This document shows, piece after piece, positions 22,495-64,000 of a stretch of 64,000 nt of DNA (the stretch's first letter is position 1; each line of letters begins with the position of its first letter). Under the pieces are notes generated by a model. The model was not told the DNA's origin. It ran no database searches and was given only the letters and a program-made list of their open reading frames with translations. The stretch covers positions 9,724,501-9,788,500 of the forward strand of contig JAPNXP010000001.1 in the NCBI GenBank assembly GCA_028753945.1, read 5' to 3'. Both the position numbers and the translations under genes were made by a program. This DNA comes from Hexactinellida sp. DTS-2022 (taxonomy: Eukaryota > Porifera > Hexactinellida).

Positions 22495-22757
22495 CTGTAC
22501 CATTCTTATCTCATGATTCTCTAATGATATTGTAAATATAATAACTGTATGTTATTTAGGTTGTGCTGTGTGTTGACTTAAAGAATTTTCTATTTGCTCA
22601 TTTGTGGTTAATTAACTTATTTTTAGGTTATTAGTTTTTTTACTGATGACCAATTGAGGCATTTATTTATTTACTGTGTTATTACAGATAATCCACCTGT
22701 AGAAACAAGTACACAATTGATTATAATTCCCATCTATAGATAATTACTATAGCTTCC

Positions 22758-23417
22758 ATGGCAGAACAGCAGAAGCCTAAGCTGGGATATTGGGACATCA
22801 GAGGGCTGGCCCAGCCCATTAGACTGCTGCTGCACTACACTAACACTGCGTTTGAAGATGTGTTGTACGTCCATGGTCCTGACTGGTTCGATATCAAGTT
22901 CAGTCTGGGACTGGAGTTCCCCAATCTGCCCTACTACATGGCAGGGGACCTCAAGATAACGGAGAGCAGCGCGATCATTCGCTACATCGCAGATAAGAAC
23001 GACCTGCTCGGGAAAGACCCGGAGACAAGAGCCCGCGTTAAAATGATGGAAGATATAATCGTCACTTGGCGCGGACAAAATGCCAAGGCCGCATACAGCG
23101 CAAACTTTGCAGAAATGAGTGCTCAGCTGTTGGAAGCCGTGGAAAAATACATTCAACAGTTCCTGAGCATCCTGGCTACCAAGCCGTTCCTGGCTGGAGA
23201 CTACATTACCTATGTGGACTTCATGTTCTACGAATACGTCATCATAGCGATCGCAATGGAACCGAGTTTCCGCGATAAGTACCCTAAGCTTGTAGAGTTC
23301 ATCGAGCGGATCGAGGCACTGCCTGCCATCAAGAAGTTCATGGAGTCGAAGGAGTTTATAAAATACCCATTCAACGCTAGGCATGCTGCTTGGGGCGGGA
23401 AGGGAGAAGCTCCGTAG
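22758..23417 (+). CDS. Mu-class glutathione S-transferase, copy 1
   Basis: 219 residues, the mu-class length. It conjugates glutathione to electrophiles as a cytosolic dimer. The N-terminal thioredoxin-like domain opens with LGYWDIRGLAQPIRLLL, where Tyr11 is the expected catalytic tyrosine. FPNLPYY (the cis-Pro loop) and KITESSAIIRYIA (glutathione gamma-Glu binding) follow, then the all-helical domain with FLAGDYITYVDF. The C-terminus AAWGGKG resembles the mu-class end. No intron. AATAAA lies at 23521. It differs from copy 2 (32850-33509) at six residues: K95T, S121R, A127G, N206F, A207G and H209Q. Confidence 0.92.
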   Translation: MAEQQKPKLGYWDIRGLAQPIRLLLHYTNTAFEDVLYVHGPDWFDIKFSLGLEFPNLPYYMAGDLKITESSAIIRYIADKNDLLGKDPETRARVKMMEDIIVTWRGQNAKAAYSANFAEMSAQLLEAVEKYIQQFLSILATKPFLAGDYITYVDFMFYEYVIIAIAMEPSFRDKYPKLVEFIERIEALPAIKKFMESKEFIKYPFNARHAAWGGKGEAP

Positions 23418-25024: not shown

Positions 25025-27154
25025 TTAAATGGAGGTTTCACCGACATGATGATTATGGAAAGTCAGGTCTTTCTCTCCAGATTGCATTTTGGAGTCAGCA
25101 GCATCCGTGGAGGGAGATAAATGATGAGTAGAAGTTCTCTGCTTGTTCCTATCCATTTCTGCGAGGGAGAGAGCTGTGGGAGTGCGAGTATACTTCAGTT
25201 TGAGTATTTGGGACCTTAAGTAGAGAAATATTAGAAGTAGGAAAAGAAACAGGAGGATGATGGTAACAATGAAGATAAAACATACAAAGAGGAGGACATA
25301 TAAGGCAGTTGTTTTGGTGTTCGCATTCAGTTCTCCAGTCGCTACATTCAGATCGGTATCACAATGGCTGAAGTTCGATGGAGACACTTTAAAACCTTCT
25401 ACGCAGGAACAAGCATGGCCATATATGGTATGTGTACAGGTGTATTGACAACCCCCGTTGTTGGTGTTACAGGGATTCGGGAGAAAGCATTCTGTTGATG
25501 CATTCTTGACGTATCCTTGGAGACACGAACATTCATATGACCCGATTGCGTTGTTACAGAAATGGGAACAGTTTCCATTAGACAGAAGGCATTCATTGAT
25601 ATCCACACAATCAGAAAATCCCAGCTGTTGGTACCCGATTAGACACGAACATTCATATGAGCCAATTGCGTTGCTACAGTTGTGCGTACAGTTTCCGTTG
25701 GACACAAGGCATTCATTGATATCGACACAATCTGAGAAATTCTGCAGTTGGTACCCGATTAGACACGAACATTCATATGACCCGATTGCGTTGGTACAGT
25801 TGTGCGTACAGTTTCCATTGATGAGAAGGCATTCATTGATGTCGCTACAAAGAGTATCATTCTCATTATAGAATCCTTCTAGACAGGAGCATTTATAGGA
25901 ACCTGGCGTGTTAGTGCAGTTCCCCTGACAAATGGCACTATCCTCACACTCGTTAATGTCGTTACATATTTCACTGACGGAGTATGATTCATCCGGATAA
26001 ACGCACTCACAACCATCTACAGTATCGACTCTATTCCAGTTCTCTCCCACACACTCAATGGATTGGTTGAAGCATTGGTAGCTACGGGCTCCACAGCTGT
26101 TGTAGAGGGTAGCATCTTCGACTGTACGAGTTTCACCAACGCAAGTAGAACCTCCTGTCTCTACGGTAATCCCAAAAGAGGACAGTTTGCTAATCCACTC
26201 GGTATCGCAGGTACAGTTGAATTGTACAGAGTTTACTTTTAGTTTTCTGAGCTTATTTAGTTGCTGGATGATTTCAGGCAAAATATGCTTCGAATCGATC
26301 TTTCCTATATCCAGTTCTTGCAGATTCTTCAACACGGTTATTGCGGATAATGTCGTGAGTTGATTGTCGTTTATATACAAAATTTGTAGGATTTTTAAGC
26401 CAAGAAATGCATTGGGATGCACGGTTCTTATCCTATTACTGGATACATCCAACTCAAGTAGCTTTTCTAATCCTTCAAATGTGCAAGATTCCAACTCTTG
26501 AATCTCATTCAGGAAAAATGCCAATTCTGTGAGCTCACTTAATCCCTTAAACGATCCAGCTTTTATCCCAGTTATTCCTGCAAATGTCAAATCTAACTCT
26601 TCCAGTTTATCTAACCCTCCGAATATTGTGTGATTAATGAATCGACTCGGTACATTATCTATTTTTGAGTAACCCACGATGATTCTTGTAAGTTGTTTAT
26701 TTTGTGCGAAAATAGGAAAGAAAACAGCGCGTATATCATATACTTCGAAATATTCCAAGTTCGGGAAGAATGCAAAAAAGTTAACTTGGTTAATTCTTAT
26801 CTGATCGGTTTCCAAAATGATAGAATTCACACCGCTATTAACCGTATACGTTTCCACAGAAATTTCATCCCAGGTACTATTGTCTATAGTCAGTTCAGTT
26901 ATGTTGTCTGGTAAACTAATGTTCAATGTTACACCCGCTCCAGCTGAGTAAACTTTAATCCATAACTTCGTGATTACAGGTTCAAAAGAAGATTCGATCG
27001 TATTCTGTATATCATTTTTGTCAGTAGTCTTTATATCACATTTAAGAATGACCCCACTCCGTGTACAGAACATGGGCTCACCCGCACCCGCAAACGCTAA
27101 GAAACTCAATAGGAATACAAACAGGACAGTTGCGTCAATGTTGAACTTATTCAT
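25025..27154 (-). CDS. LRR and calcium-binding EGF type I membrane protein
   Basis: Intronless 709-residue protein from the ATG at 27154; the frame is open 45 nt further upstream but without ATG. A signal peptide (VLFVFLLSFLAFAG) precedes about six to eight leucine-rich repeats (such as LEELDLTFAGITGIKAGSFKG and LLELDVSSNRIRTVHPNAFL) and an LRR C-terminal cap (FNCTCDTEWISKL). Next come five or six EGF domains, at least four of them DINEC calcium-binding type and three nearly tandem duplicates (DINECL..NGNCTHNC.NAIGSYECSCLIGYQ). A membrane helix at about 612-645 and a 64-residue Ser/Thr-rich cytoplasmic tail follow. Many N-glycosylation sites. It looks like a surface receptor or adhesion protein; ligand unknown. 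Related to the gene at 59785. Confidence 0.85.
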   Translation of the reverse strand: MNKFNIDATVLFVFLLSFLAFAGAGEPMFCTRSGVILKCDIKTTDKNDIQNTIESSFEPVITKLWIKVYSAGAGVTLNISLPDNITELTIDNSTWDEISVETYTVNSGVNSIILETDQIRINQVNFFAFFPNLEYFEVYDIRAVFFPIFAQNKQLTRIIVGYSKIDNVPSRFINHTIFGGLDKLEELDLTFAGITGIKAGSFKGLSELTELAFFLNEIQELESCTFEGLEKLLELDVSSNRIRTVHPNAFLGLKILQILYINDNQLTTLSAITVLKNLQELDIGKIDSKHILPEIIQQLNKLRKLKVNSVQFNCTCDTEWISKLSSFGITVETGGSTCVGETRTVEDATLYNSCGARSYQCFNQSIECVGENWNRVDTVDGCECVYPDESYSVSEICNDINECEDSAICQGNCTNTPGSYKCSCLEGFYNENDTLCSDINECLLINGNCTHNCTNAIGSYECSCLIGYQLQNFSDCVDINECLVSNGNCTHNCSNAIGSYECSCLIGYQQLGFSDCVDINECLLSNGNCSHFCNNAIGSYECSCLQGYVKNASTECFLPNPCNTNNGGCQYTCTHTIYGHACSCVEGFKVSPSNFSHCDTDLNVATGELNANTKTTALYVLLFVCFIFIVTIILLFLFLLLIFLYLRSQILKLKYTRTPTALSLAEMDRNKQRTSTHHLSPSTDAADSKMQSGEKDLTFHNHHVGETSI

Positions 27155-27785
27155 GATTGCTGTGTTAAGGCAGTATAAATTGTTTTGTTCAACAGTCAAT
27201 TTATACTAGAGGAATATTATTATATAGATTTCCACTGTTTAATTAATTTATCCAACATACACGGTAAATCTTAATTTACTAGTTATTTAACAATTCCCAA
27301 ATTTGTTAATGTTATTCACCTCAAAAATTGAACAACAAAGTTACCGCTAAATATATTTTCGCATATGAAACCAATTGCGAATAAGGTTAAGGGATCGAGT
27401 GTATAATCCTTTATGGAATCAATTCTTAATTAAATAACCATTCTCTTTCGTATATATTTACGGACAGATAAATACAGTCAGAACAGTTATTTTATGATCG
27501 TATAGCTAATATCTTTGTATTTAATCTTAGAAATAAATTCTCGAAAGAATACCGTATATACTCGGATAATCGCCCCAAAAAGTAGAAATTAATATATATT
27601 ACCTCAAAACATGTAAACATGTTTGTTTATAAAAAATAGGTCTCAATTCGATTTCAACCGACTATCTATATTATTAAATCTCGATTGTTGTGTGTTTGTG
27701 TGTGTGTGTGTGTGTGTGTTTGTTTGTCCGGATTGTATTAAAGTGCGGGGGGATAGAAACCGCATTAATATATGAGATATTCACT
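27155..27785. other. AT-rich intergenic region
   Basis: No gene. A solitary MITE-like end ACCGTATATACTCGGATAAT is at about 27552 and a (TG)n microsatellite at 27690-27720. Confidence 0.5.
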
Positions 27786-32350: not shown

Positions 32351-32849
32351 TCTGATACTGTGATTTAATTGGTCGAGAGGAGGTTCATTTATCCAATCAG
32401 TTATTGTGTTCCCTCTGTCTATCCATACATTTCTAACATTCCATTGTGTCTATTTGATTATTACCAATCAAATTACCAATCTCCACATCCCAAAGTCAGG
32501 CGTCCACAGAGTTGTACAGTTTCTTAGTGATATTTATTTTCTATTTGGAGTTAGTTTATTAATATATACGCGGACATGCAATATTATCTAGAAAACTGTC
32601 AGTTCTAATTAGCTTAAATATTCAACAATACAGGCGCTGATTAGTATTTCCCAATTTATTTTTTCTGTCCTTATACGTATATACCTATGACTAGGGCTCA
32701 CGGATATAAATAGACAGCTTAGGGGGGCACAGCCCTACTCTGAAACAATAGCATTACTGTTATGTGGGTCACTAGCGGTCACCTAAATATATGTAGAAAC
32801 TAGTACACAATTAATTATACTATTCCTATAGATTATTACTATAGCTTCC

Positions 32850-33509
32850 ATGGCAGAACAGCAGAAGCCTAAGCTGGGATATTGGGACATCAGAGGGCTG
32901 GCCCAGCCCATTAGACTGCTGCTGCACTACACTAACACTGCGTTTGAAGATGTGTTGTACGTCCATGGTCCTGACTGGTTCGATATCAAGTTCAGTCTGG
33001 GACTGGAGTTCCCCAATCTGCCCTACTACATGGCAGGGGACCTCAAGATAACGGAGAGCAGCGCGATCATTCGCTACATCGCAGATAAGAACGACCTGCT
33101 CGGGAAAGACCCGGAGACAAGAGCCCGCGTTACAATGATGGAAGATATAATCGTCACTTGGCGCGGACAAAATGCCAAGGCTGCATACAGCGCAAACTTT
33201 GCAGAGATGAGAGCTCAGCTGTTGGAAGGCGTGGAAAAATACATTCAACAGTTCCTGAGCATCCTGGCTACCAAGCCGTTCCTGGCTGGAGACTACATAA
33301 CCTATGTGGACTTCATGTTCTACGAATACGTCATCATAGCGATCGCAATGGAACCGAGTTTCCGCGATAAGTACCCTAAGCTTGTAGAGTTCATCGAGCG
33401 GATCGAGGCACTGCCTGCCATCAAGAAGTTCATGGAGTCGAAGGAGTTTATAAAATATCCATTCTTCGGTAGGCAAGCTGCTTGGGGCGGGAAGGGAGAA
33501 GCTCCGTAG
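32850..33509 (+). CDS. Mu-class glutathione S-transferase, copy 2
   Basis: 219-residue paralogue of the GST at 22758-23417, 97% identical, with the same intronless structure, catalytic Tyr11 in GYWDIRG, and AATAAA at 33614. Substitutions are K95T, S121R, A127G, N206F, A207G and H209Q. Three of the six fall in residues 206-209, in the C-terminal tail that lines the electrophile pocket in mu-class enzymes. Both frames are intact, so both copies are probably functional. The duplicated block spans about 32785-33722. Confidence 0.92.
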   Translation: MAEQQKPKLGYWDIRGLAQPIRLLLHYTNTAFEDVLYVHGPDWFDIKFSLGLEFPNLPYYMAGDLKITESSAIIRYIADKNDLLGKDPETRARVTMMEDIIVTWRGQNAKAAYSANFAEMRAQLLEGVEKYIQQFLSILATKPFLAGDYITYVDFMFYEYVIIAIAMEPSFRDKYPKLVEFIERIEALPAIKKFMESKEFIKYPFFGRQAAWGGKGEAP

Positions 33510-57059: not shown

Positions 57060-58425
57060 ATATCATAATAACAGTTGAGTATAAATTGATTATGGGATGT
57101 GGCTAACGGAAAATATACGATTCGGACAATAAATTCTTGCTTAGTCCCCCTCCTTCAAGGTGATAGGAAATATCGTGTCCAGGTTTATGGGGATTTTTTA
57201 GTGTTTTTAATATAAAGTAGACATATTTAACTTCAATATAAACCAAATTCCAGATTCCCAAAAATTTGCCCACAGATATTTTCTTTTAATATTAATTAAT
57301 TTATTAAGATAAGTGATTCAAGTACAAATTATACTCCATCAATTAAAATTATTTCTTATGCATAACAAGGAAGCTTTTGAATTTCTTAACTCGAATCCAG
57401 TGAGTTATGGATTACAATGAATTAGAATCTGACTAATATCAAACAATTCGGTGTCAATTTGATGAATTAAAGTTTAGCAGGGAGCTGAACTGTCGGCAAA
57501 TTAATGGAAACATACTTTTACATACTGAGATCTCAACAATATTGTCAAAACTAGGTTCTACTAGCTCTAAAACCTAGGTGATGTAATATTCTTATAAATA
57601 GTTTCTAAATGCGCGAAAAGGCGCGACGTAGATTACTTAATATCTTTGAACCATATATATTAGGATTTTTGAAAAAATTATACCTTGTTCAAGAAATATA
57701 ATCAATAATCATGGGTGAATAATAAAAAATTTGTTAACAAACCTAAAGTATAATTTATGATAGAATTAACATGAATTGTCTAGAACTACGTTTAGGAGAC
57801 TACGTACATCATTTCTGATAATGCCATTCAGTTTGCAGCTACCGATAACCTATATGTCAATAATACTTCATTAGAGTCTATCTAGCATAGTTTTCCTATT
57901 TCCACTTACACCCCTGAAATTCCCACTGTGTCCTATACTCCTTGCACTCCTCTCTCTACTCTTGCAAGCCTCAATTCTTTAAATCTCGTTAGGACTAACT
58001 CTATTTATTCTTATTTATTTTCTAAACTTATTTTATAGATACTATTCTTTTCGAATTTATTTCTTTTCTTCATTTCAATGATTTCATTGACCCCTCACTT
58101 TTCATAATTATTATTCTCTTTTTATTTGTTTCATTTGTGTTTCTCTATCTAAACTCACTAATATTTGAAGGGCCAGAACACAATTTTCGCTATAACTGAC
58201 GAACAAAGACAAAATTGAGAATTCAGGCTTCGAGGTGATCATCTCCAGGAAATTTTATATCTCCTGTCTAAATTTCAAATCTCTATCACCAATGGTATAG
58301 TTAGGCCATCGCGTACGGCCGGCCGGCCGGAAATGAATCAGAACTATTTCAATGATGTGCACTTAATGTATAAAACTATAATAGGACGCTACTATAACGT
58401 TTTTTCTAGAAGAAGCACACTAAAA
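57060..58425. other. AT-rich sequence, no gene seen
   Basis: No coding or repeat structure recognised apart from a pyrimidine-rich tract at 57890-58170 and a CCGGCCGGCCGG run at about 58317. Confidence 0.4.
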
Positions 58426-58429
58426 ATCC

Positions 58430-58600
58430 AAAATTGCAGCTGTGCCGACACATGTTGCTTTGGAGGCACTATATTTTGGTGGTTGGTTAACTAGTAGTGC
58501 CTCCAAAGGAAATGCTGTCGGCACAGCTACAATTTTGGATTTTTTAGCCATGTCCTAATCACTATGAAGGTGTTAAACCATTTCAGAAAGGTGTTCCGGA
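58430..58600 (+). repeat. Solitary palindromic head of the A-tailed repeat
   Basis: CCAAAATTGCAGCTGTGCCGAC...GTCGGCACAGCT, followed by ATCACTATGAAGGTGTTAAA as at 50045-50200. Confidence 0.8.
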
Positions 58601-59663: not shown

Positions 59664-59696
<33 letters not shown>

Positions 59697-59784
59697 CACT
59701 AATGTACAAGTTTTATGCAATAACAAATTTACATAAACTTCACCTTTCAATTTTTTTCTTGAATATTTAATATTCTATTATCTC
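58601..59784. other. Upstream region of the second LRR/EGF gene
   Basis: No gene. A diverged 60-bp short repeat is at 59553-59592 (ACTGGGCCAC, AGTCGGCACAG) and an (ATT)n microsatellite at 59664-59692. Confidence 0.5.
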
Positions 59785-61086
59785 ATGTTTCTATCGATCC
59801 TATTATCGATTCCTATTTTCCTGCTACTCTGCAGTTATACCCCTGGGGTACATGGAATTTGCGATGAGCCAGAATTATCTTGTAATATTTATACTACTAC
59901 TACCAGTTCCTGTTCAATCAGGGCAGATAACGGAACCAGGACAAGCTACCTTATAGCGAAGCGTTCTGGTGAAGTAGCAGAGACTGGAAGAACTGTTGTT
60001 ATATTTTATGTGTATTTGACGGAGAATATTGAAACTATCACACTGAATATAGCTGAAGGTATAACCACATTCAATTTGTCTGTTTATGATACAATCTCGA
60101 TTGAATTCAACAAAACTCAAATTGACATCCGATTTCTAACTTTATATGCACTCAGTCCGGCTGATATATATTGTTCTTATGATTTCATAAACCATTTCCC
60201 AAGCGTTGCACACCTCACTATACAGAATGTTGTATTCGATCGCTTTCCATACTTAAACTCGACACTTGTAACACAACTGTATCTCGACTACCTTACGCTA
60301 CCTAATGTCGTAACCATTCTGCCGTCAATGCTTATTCTACCTAACTTGTATAGATTAAATATGACTCAATTAGAAGACGCACTGTTGTATCACGCTATTC
60401 CCAGCAGTTTCGATAACACTCGTATTGAGTATTTATCTCTGGAAGGAATACAACACCTATATAGTAACCAGTTTGCTAACTTGATACATTTGAGAAGATT
60501 GTATTTGTCCAAATTTTTCACTGATTTCACATTTGAAGAGAACGCACTAACTGGATTGGATGGATTGACACATTTTTATATTCTATACTACTTGCATACA
60601 AATTTAGATTTCCTTTCCAAAGAGACCTTTCCTAGTCTAACATATTTCGATTTACGCTCTTCTTCTATAACTACACTAGATCAAAGATTTTTTGAGAAAC
60701 AAAAAGAATTATCCAGCTTTTCCAGTGATTCTGTTCCATTCCATTGTGATTGTCGGATGGCATGGATTATTCATGTGATTGATAATCTAGGCTGGTCAGT
60801 TACAGGCACGTGTGCAACCCCTCCCACTGTTAATGGGAACCCATTAAGTGATCGTTCCAATTACTTTAACTGTCCGCACCAATCCTACCATTGCTTTAAT
60901 GATACTTTCATTTGTCCTTGGGAGAGTATCTGTGTTAACACAGCAGACAGTGCCTACTGTGAATGAGTAGAAGGTTACACTCTACAATCTGATCTACTAA
61001 CCTGTATTACGTCCGGAGTAAGTCAGCTTAAGTCTTCGCTATATTTCGCTATAATCTCTCTCTTGCTTATGTCCCTCCTCGTATAG
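59785..61086 (+). CDS. LRR/EGF surface protein with an in-frame UGA at an EGF cysteine
   Basis: From ATG 59785 the frame runs 393 residues: signal peptide (ILLSIPIFLLLCSYTPGVHG), irregular leucine-rich repeats (YLSLEGIQHLYSNQFANLIHLRRLYL), an LRR C-terminal cap (FHCDCRMAWIIHVI) and the start of an EGF domain (CPWESICVNTADSAYCE). A TGA at 60964-60966 follows. The same frame continues VEGYTLQSDLLTC, which completes the EGF fold, then a Ser/Gly-containing spacer and a hydrophobic end (LYFAIISLLLMSLLV) to TAG at 61084. That end has no cytoplasmic tail and looks like a GPI-anchor signal. UGA occupies the fifth EGF Cys position. It may be a recent nonsense change, giving a truncated secreted protein, or a recoded codon. 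AT-rich and intronless like the relative at 25025-27154. Confidence 0.8.
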
Positions 61087-62140
61087 GATAGTACATAAGT
61101 AACTTCTCTATTTATCACTATTTACTTATTTATATTCTTATTTTGTTAGTTTCTAATTTTAGTTTTTTGTTAGTTTCTAACTTAATTTTTTTTCACGTCC
61201 TATACCTATAAATCTCTTTTTATTAGTTTTTATCATTTATTACTCTTTCTACACTCATTAAGTTATTTATTGTCACAAGGTTGGATTCGATTAACTGTTG
61301 CTAAAATCGGTTAGCGGTTGCAGATTTCATTAACCAGTTGGACGGTTTGTTGAATTTCAGCAGAATAATTCGAAATTATGTATAAATAATTCAACTTTTT
61401 GTGTATTTTGTTAGAAAAAGATAATCTTCAATTCATTTCCCATCACCACATTATATATTATCTGCATCTACACTGTTTCTAGATTAAGAAATAGATCAGT
61501 TAATGTACTCGTGGGGTACTACTACCCCATAACTAGTTACTAGATAATACAGTCTTATTCTTATATATAAACAAAATTGAGAGGGTAACCGGTTTCCGCG
61601 GCGAGAAATCAAATCTTACAACGGTTAACCAACCCAATCTTGATTAAATATATAGTGCTGGGAGCTTCTAAGCTACTTGTGCATTCGTCAAAAAGTATTT
61701 TAGGACAGTCCAGGTGCTTTGCTTAGGCAAAGTGTCTTGAGATTTCTATACGCGAAATTCGTAATCCACGACTTGTTTACCTATAACAGAATACTCAAAG
61801 ACAGTTCCAGTTCCAATGATACCTATCTTCATAATGTGATGGTGTGAAATAGAGTGCAACCTTTATTAATATTATCGAACTCATTGAGACTAGAAGTTGG
61901 GTTACTCTGGTAGCTATAGGATAGATAGTATAAACACTAAGTATTAGGAGAACTAATTGAAAGATAAATTACTCGTTGGGACCTGTCAAACATTTTCCCC
62001 TGGTGTGTTCAGAAATAGAGGCTGCACTGTACAGAAAGCATGTCATATGGGGTTCCACGCTACACCACAGTCTGTCTTTTGAGAAAATGCGTTCATAAAT
62101 TTGAGATGGTCACTCATCGCAGGTGAATAAGTATTGTAAT
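61087..62140. other. AT-rich sequence, no gene seen
   Basis: 3' flank of the LRR/EGF gene. No convincing SECIS-type stem-loop was seen by eye in the first few hundred bases; no other feature. Confidence 0.4.
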
Positions 62141-62563
62141 CAGCGGCGAATCCAGGATTTGATGCAGGGGGTGCTCTTAGGATACGAGACATCAAAATGT
62201 GCACATAAGGCACTCGAATTTTACTGCGTCGCCAACGCTTACTTTGACTTTCCCGACAGATAATCGATTGTTATTTCCCTAGAGTAGGCCAGTGCCCGTA
62301 TTGCGGTATTGGAATCGGACCGGCCATGGGATCCAAAGTGAGCAATTATAAAGGGTTGGGTTTGCACCCAGAAATTTTTAGAACTCATTAGGCTCATCTT
62401 ATGATAAAAGACTGATTGCGCGGACTTTGGCACAGAGATCTGAGTTGTAGAGCGAAACAGGAAAACACGAATATTGTCCTCATAAAGACTCTGGTTTTGC
62501 AGGAATTGGGTGCTCGACTTTCCGGCCACGTCCCTACCGTCTGTACTCTGTGCTACGGCCCTG
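62141..62563. mobile_element. Probable non-autonomous hAT-like element
   Basis: Ends CAGCGGCGAATCCAGG and (rc) CAGGGCCGTAGCACAGAG resemble the hAT-like ends elsewhere in the window. No target duplication found. A 116-codon minus-strand frame spans it (62239-62589) but matches nothing I know. Confidence 0.4.
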
Positions 62564-62877
62564 TTAAGGAATGAAGGAATGTCCATCAATGTTTAATATT
62601 ACCAGGTCTGGACTGTAAGTAAGTATACACATTTAAAATAGTAGATAACTAGCTTGCTCTCTCTTTATACGAATGCTGGAGGAGTTTTATGGTTCAGAGG
62701 TTAGAGAAGCTATTTTAGTGACATTTCTTGAATTCGTTACAAAGAAGTGCATATCTTCCGTCTTAAGTCTGTGGGAAATGTGAAACGTTATGTCCAGGTA
62801 CTCGTCGATTAGTAGTTAATACCTCATTTACTAAATACCTCTCTGTCTCTCACCTTTTAATTGACCTGGTTATAATA

Positions 62878-63343
62878 CATAGGCGTCGACCATGCCGGGG
62901 CGGTCGGGGCGTGCCCCGGCATGAGAAAATCATGCCGGGGCGGCCACTGCTCCGCCCCGGCATAAATTCGATTGGACATTGGACAGTTGAAATTCATCCT
63001 CGGGAAAAGTTTCTTTGATCCTAGTTCATACGAACTTATTTGATTCGGATGAACCTATTTAGTTCGTTGAGAACTAAACTAATTAGGTTTGTCCGAACTT
63101 AATTCGAACCGCTAAAGCCGCCATGTTTATAGCAATAATGCAATGTATTTGTTCTGTCAGAAAGATTAAAGAAAGCTATTTATCGGGAAATTTTCATCAA
63201 GATAAACCCAACCTTTGGAAAAAGTTCTACAATAGGTAAAACAACTTTTCTGATACACGTTTTATACTAGGTGATATTTTTAAAAATTCGTAGCTCGCCC
63301 CGTCATGATTTTTCGAAAAATGGAAAAGTGGAAAACGCCACTG
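62878..63343 (+). mobile_element. hAT-like element with 8-bp duplication TTATAATA
   Basis: Ends CATAGGCGTCGACC and (rc) CAGTGGCGTTTTCC; TTATAATA at 62870-62877 and 63344-63351. The left part is a GC-rich foldback of ATGCCGGGGCGG. Confidence 0.85.
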
Positions 63344-63544
63344 TTATAATATCATCAGACAATTTGGAATATTTTAGGATATGCCGATACTCTAGTCCCC
63401 AACAAGTGGGAAGAGGCATGTACATGATGAGAGTGACACGCGTCTAGGTGTTTCTGCATTTGTAGTCATCTCAGAGGGTAAAGAGAGAGCATGATACAGA
63501 GTTTGCCCGTCCATTTGATAAATTTGCTAAATAGAAAAAATTGC

Positions 63545-63675
63545 ATTAAATTACGGTCATGGAAATTAATGCTCCATGAAATTAAGGTCATGGAAATTAA
63601 CGCTCCATGAAATTAAGGCATGGAAATTAACGCGAAATGGAGCAATTCGCGTTAATTTCATGGCGCGTAAATTTC
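63545..63675. repeat. Local direct and inverted repeats of CATGGAAATTAACGC
   Basis: Three direct copies of CATGGAAATTAA(C/T)GC followed by inverted GCGTTAATTTCATG. Confidence 0.7.
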
Positions 63676-63786
63676 CTATAATAAGGTATATACTACAGCA
63701 TCTACGTAGAACGTATACTCCTATTACAATACACCCATATCACTAATGTACAAGTTTCCTACAATAACCAAATTGGGTATCTAACA

Positions 63787-64000
63787 TGTTTTTATTTTAA
63801 CATGTTTTTATTTTAACACGTTTTTTTTTTAACATGTTTTTATTTTAACATGTTTATATTTTAACATGTTTTTATTTTAACATGTTTTTATTTTAACATG
63901 TTTTTTTTTAACATGTTTTTATTTTAACATGTTTTTATTTTAACATGTTTTTATTTTAACATGTTTTTATTTTAACATGTTTTTTTTTTAACATGTTTTT
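63787..64000. repeat. 16-bp minisatellite running off the window
   Basis: About 13 copies of TTTTTATTTTAACATG, a few with TTTTTTTT variants; cut by the window end. Confidence 0.95.

Follow-up and report, generated by a model that had tools for sequence, protein, structure and literature searches.

The locus and its interrupted frame

The locus raises the question of whether an in-frame TGA standing where an EGF-like module should have a cysteine is a recent nonsense mutation or a codon recoded as selenocysteine. We analyzed a window of 64,000 nucleotides (contig C1, C1:9724501-9788500) together with the genome that contains it, 112.4 Mb in 18 contigs. On the plus strand of the window, a frame is open from 59737 to 60963, with its first in-frame Met at 59785; the TGA occupies 60964-60966, equivalent to C1:9785464-9785466, and is followed by 39 open codons and a TAG at 61084-61086. 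The reading ...SAYCE, TGA, VEGYTLQSDLLTC and then a hydrophobic tail agrees in coordinates and frame with what the initial annotation had described. From Met to TAG the frame is otherwise unbroken. The TGA is thus the sole disabling change in the window copy, which ends just 39 codons early.

The coding part from Met to TGA (393 codons plus the TGA, 59785-60966), delimited from the frame, its paralogs, and Pfam and PDB matches, contains a hydrophobic N-terminus that looks signal-like by eye, an LRR region, a cysteine cap, and the first four cysteines of an EGF-like module. Pfam LRR_8 matched this part with E=2.2e-5 and 24.6 bits, which is below the curated cut-off of 27, and a phmmer search of PDB with the same part gave LGI1 as the best match (E=7.4e-7), followed by LRIG1 (1.3e-6) and more weakly by other LRR proteins. 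The cap, at 60736-60873 with Cys codons at 60745, 60751, 60811 and 60871, was delimited from the sequence and from PDB LRR-chain matches, which extend over residues 371-402; we take it to be an LRRCT-like module, although LRRCT was not matched in a Pfam scan of the window protein. The single EGF-like module, placed at 60892-61005 by paralog alignment, is broken by the TGA, and a Pfam scan of both sides of the TGA separately did not match EGF. Beyond the TGA, the open tail (60967-61086) contains the last EGF cysteine, after which a short hydrophobic stretch that by eye resembles a GPI signal forms the C-terminus and runs up to the TAG.

The TGA codon in related copies

The EGF cysteines of the frame are encoded at 60892, 60913, 60931, 60958 and 61003, which makes the TGA the fifth of six positions. 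The initial annotation had assigned the TGA to the Cys place of a CxC pair by aligning it with a distant LRR-EGF gene on the minus strand (25025-27205), which is only 24% identical. To place the site on closer relatives, we ran tblastn over the LRRCT-EGF stretch, which gave 49 rows, 43 of them reaching the TGA site. The codon was TGT or TGC in 38 of the 43 rows, corresponding to 37 distinct copies since L002 and L009 contain one copy twice, and it was TGA in one row, the window itself. The four remaining rows had TAT, GTG, AGA and TGG. The TAT belongs to the distant gene, where the alignment is one residue off and the gene's own CEC pair lies one residue earlier; L031 (GTG) and L032 (AGA) are already out of frame at the site, and L022 (TGG) has lost two bases. 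Six of the 49 rows stop well before the site, and three of these (L016, L017 and L022), which follow a wrong frame, read TGA when continued in it; the right-frame codons of these loci are TGC, TGC and TGG, respectively.

A 17-base signature immediately before the codon, RACAGYGCNTAYTGYGA, occurs at 34 places genome-wide. It is followed by NTGY (TGT or TGC) at 32 of them, by NTGA at one, the window, and at the last, C1:9797672 within L022, by the TGG of the copy that lost two bases. Both the paralog codons and this census show that the cysteine alignment is correct and that the TGA is specific to the window copy among relatives in the same genome, so the assignment to the CxC pair stands, and on better grounds than those first given for it.

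A nonsense change that hits a Cys codon is not especially unlikely. The nearest intact copy offers 184 single-base changes that create a stop of any kind, 50 of them creating TGA, and 16 in each set begin at a Cys codon; thus about 1 in 11 random nonsense changes, and about a third of those making TGA, would fall on a cysteine. We also considered two ways in which the family itself might have supplied the TGA. A habit of turning Cys codons into TGA was rejected: the family alignments show 46 in-frame stops after the Met, many lying where the frame is wrong, and one falls on a Cys, namely a TGA that replaces the EGF cysteine at residue 393 of the broken copy at C1:10152 kb. We likewise rejected gene conversion as the source of the TGA, as no other signature-bearing copy has it.

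A dispersed LRR and EGF gene family

A DNA search with 60700-61090 returned at least 48 matched pieces on eight contigs, some of them two pieces of one gene, and these define a dispersed family of at least 42 loci. The regions of all 48 listed pieces were used; further family members, at C1:17436084, C2:477616, C5:994260, C18:5420826, C5:4452127 and C5:1280111, lie outside the 42-locus set. Members share one layout and show no introns in their frames: an LRR part and the LRRCT-like cap precede the EGF modules, which number from one to many and are each ∼39 residues long, and the C-terminus is short and hydrophobic. The window gene has both the layout and the sequence of its dispersed paralogs, with 56-79% protein identity in single-frame matches spanning ∼400 residues. 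The PDB relatives LGI1, LRIG1, LRRC4C, Slit and FLRT resemble the window protein in having an LRR region with a C-terminal cysteine cap; however, the similarity is low (best E=7e-7), and the window family adds EGF modules and a hydrophobic tail. Literature listings showed no publication on this family.

By a mechanical rule for a complete frame (a recognizable tail, with more than 290 residues ahead of the LRRCT module), 21 of the 42 examined loci have one, and the window copy is among the 21 that do not. With half of the examined loci disabled, loss by stop or frameshift is common in the family, and a new stop in one member is ordinary. Nonsense and pseudogene copies of this kind are a feature of tandem and dispersed multigene families that undergo birth-and-death evolution. 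The family is like such multigene families in its many copies, half of the 42 examined loci being incomplete, in a near duplicate with shared flank, and in one new stop; it differs in that the window copy carries one disabling change alone and stops 39 codons short. We consider that the gene family merits more attention than the stop codon: it is dispersed, one in two of the examined loci is disabled, and coding sequence is more diverged than flank in the pair of copies compared below. One further member, L009 (C16:279.8 kb), has a single open frame of 1418 codons with a very long run of EGF modules.

Search for selenocysteine signals

On the recoding reading, a SECIS element in the 3′ UTR would direct Sec insertion at the UGA, and the protein would be full-length and anchored, with Sec in its EGF module. 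The position of the UGA at a conserved Cys is what this reading predicts, and the organism has the means: a tRNA-Sec at C12:6529816-6529901 (L037; 75.8 bits, above cut-off), SECIS elements, and a GPx with an in-frame TGA at C1:11537806-11538381 (L042), whose matched domain is otherwise one uninterrupted frame. We used the GPx locus as an internal control. A permissive Rfam scan found SECIS_1 there, 187 bases past the matched domain, at 30.9 bits (E=0.0022; below the curated cut-off of 35), but the same kind of scan, with E up to 10, found no SECIS in 59700-64000. A whole-genome SECIS_1 search with E up to 10, in which 133 of 1239 candidates were scored, gave seven matches, none in the window; the best, at C6:4873482 with 41.9 bits, was the one match above cut-off.

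Two home-made scans of 60967-64000 were also negative. A structure-rule scan of the plus strand gave 0 candidates, against 0-3 in ten shuffles; it recovers three of five reference places (GPx, C1:1113671 and C11:13777011) and misses C6:4873482 and C5:5110044, the latter a match of 27 bits that may not be real. An earlier scan, which recovers one of three controls, gave 0 as well. These scans are not exhaustive, and the region they treat as the 3′ side is the genomic sequence up to 64000. The 3′ flank, moreover, is that of a Cys-bearing copy, so that a SECIS would have to be new, and the replaced cysteine is structural, as EGF cysteines are engaged in disulfides. The window gene is therefore like the eukaryotic selenoproteins, here the organism's own GPx, in having an in-frame UGA where relatives have Cys in a Sec-capable organism, but unlike GPx it has no SECIS that we could find. 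With no SECIS up to 64000 and a control that the Rfam scan does find, we rejected the Sec reading, which we regard as extremely improbable, and recoding, the other half of the choice offered by the initial annotation, is left unsupported. A UGA aligned with Cys, even in an organism that makes selenoproteins, is insufficient to call a selenoprotein, and a paralog census combined with an in-genome GPx control provides a cheap answer to the question.

Comparison with the copy on contig C16

The Cys-bearing copy that shares this flank lies on another contig, at C16:285.4-289.1 kb on the minus strand, and matches 59693-63779 of the window plus strand, that is, the gene and ∼2.7 kb of 3′ flank. The coding part, 59785-61083, corresponds to C16:287.4-289.1 kb. 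Relative to the C16 copy, the window has lost 172 bases at 61942 and gained an insertion of 469 bases at 62872. Flank identity is 96.9% over 61087-62210 (1.1 kb) and 94.1% over 61087-62860, whereas coding identity before the TGA is 90.3%, a significantly greater divergence than that of the flank at 94.1% (p=0.0002). Identity also varies along the gene. The closest matches to the tail (60973-61083) lie in the C16 cluster, at 97% for the copy at C16:287.7 kb and 95% for another, and the EGF stretch around the TGA is nearest to a TGC-bearing copy at C1:10385 kb (90%, against 85% for the C16 copy). In 59931-60290 the C16 copy, at 85%, scores behind eight other places with 86-88%.

Among 1173 aligned coding bases we counted two insertion or deletion events, each 3 bases long, compared with 22 events in 1738 bases of flank (Fisher p=0.001); at the flank rate, ∼15 coding events would be expected. 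This scarcity of coding indels, and their being in frame, suggests that selection acted on the frame during most of the period after the two copies separated, and that the TGA itself is young. The dN/dS ratio against the C16 copy, from our own Nei-Gojobori script and on small counts, is 0.92, with 0.94 before the TGA, and rises to 2.4 and 1.4 in two 150-base LRR bins of 59935-60234. The tail is less informative. The initial annotation had taken the intact downstream frame as a sign that the change is young or tolerated, but at the indel and substitution rates of the flank the chance of the 117-base tail staying open is ∼0.45 over the whole time since the duplication, a rough figure that uses one copy pair, takes the flank as neutral and includes flank indels partly in simple sequence. 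If the TGA is younger than the duplication, the chance would be higher. The intact tail thus has little power, and we rejected it as a means of dating the TGA.

Excess coding divergence is what diversifying selection or exchange would be expected to produce in proteins of recognition or adhesion. The eight places closer than the C16 copy over 59931-60290 suggest that exchange between copies fits the excess at least as well as diversifying selection does. This bears on the possibility that the truncation was adaptive, with loss of the anchor creating a soluble LRR decoy or ligand that was then kept by selection. The frame kept up to the TGA with two in-frame indels, the dN/dS values near and above 1 and the coding divergence in excess of the flank are all consistent with such a history. 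However, the frame was inherited from anchored ancestors, and the selection on it can for the most part be older than the TGA; exchange may account for the excess divergence; and the EGF fold of the product would be left incomplete, with four of its six cysteines present. We consider an adaptive truncation unlikely. It is a touch less likely still that the whole of a broader proposal holds, in which the family consists of fast-diversifying, sequence-exchanging, anchored LRR recognition proteins and the single-base TGA made one member a soluble decoy or ligand that was kept.

Interpretation of the TGA

Taken together, these data indicate that the TGA very probably arose by a recent nonsense mutation that struck a single gene of a large LRR and EGF family, whose genes duplicate, show no introns and encode cell-surface proteins. 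In the choice between nonsense and recoding, the former is supported: TGA is confined to the window copy, 37 other distinct copies have Cys, the flank is recently shared with a Cys-bearing copy, and half of the examined loci are disabled. By this account, the TGC or TGT of the fifth EGF cysteine would have changed to TGA after the window and C16 copies parted. If the gene is transcribed, the ribosome would stop at the UGA and release a product with signal peptide, LRR and LRRCT-like parts that ends after EGF Cys 4 and has no hydrophobic tail; it would probably be secreted or misfolded instead of membrane-anchored. With no visible intron and the TGA only 120 bases before the normal stop, strong nonsense-mediated decay would not be expected. 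The window copy would be becoming a pseudogene or represent a tolerated truncated form. Compared with functional relatives it has one disabling change, the TGA, and its dN/dS is close to 1, yet indels were avoided. The frame is undamaged on both sides of the TGA, unlike that of an old neutral pseudogene, and judged from the sequence the copy must be either young in its change or still in use.

Other accounts of an intact tail behind a stop were weighed against the nonsense mutation. Termination could be leaky: if a near-cognate tRNA sometimes read the UGA, most of the protein would be soluble and some of it anchored. UGA leaks more than the other stop codons, and the tail frame is intact. That intactness is nevertheless expected ∼45% of the time with no translation at all, the stop is not conserved, as no relative read at the site in the same genome has a stop there in the right frame, and the bases after it are GTAGAA. 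They match neither CUAG nor CARYYA, which are given as readthrough motifs in mammalian data (PMC4132726). We consider leaky termination very unlikely. Removal of the TGA by splicing was rejected, because the only tight GT...AG pair around it (GTGAATGAGTAG, by eye) is 12 bases apart, too short for an intron. The TGA may also be a consensus error or a minority allele, as it is seen in one assembly and differs from the codon at the 32 places with the same signature. A single-base sequencing or assembly error is nonetheless highly improbable: the site lies outside any homopolymer or tandem repeat, and the bases directly after the TGA are unlike those of the C16 copy and like those of other paralogs (GTA follows the codon in L016, L017, L019 and L024), which argues against a mere miscopy of the C16 gene.

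Other features of the window

Several further features were noted in the window. Two plus-strand frames, at 22740-23417 and 32832-33509, which we take to encode glutathione-S-transferase-like proteins, are identical at 666 of 678 bases and lie ∼10 kb apart; the pair flanks the distant LRR-EGF gene mentioned above and points to a recent duplication. A hairpin-like inverted repeat at 58422-58544, with 50-base arms that are 88% complementary and 23 bases apart, is MITE-like and has partial matches in the C16 cluster. The 469 bases absent from the C16 copy (62872-63340) contain several G+C-rich inverted repeats of the CATGCCGGGGCG type and look like a young insertion. Finally, an array of the 16-base unit TAACATGTTTTTATTT occupies 63782-64000, with 13.8 copies up to the end of the window.
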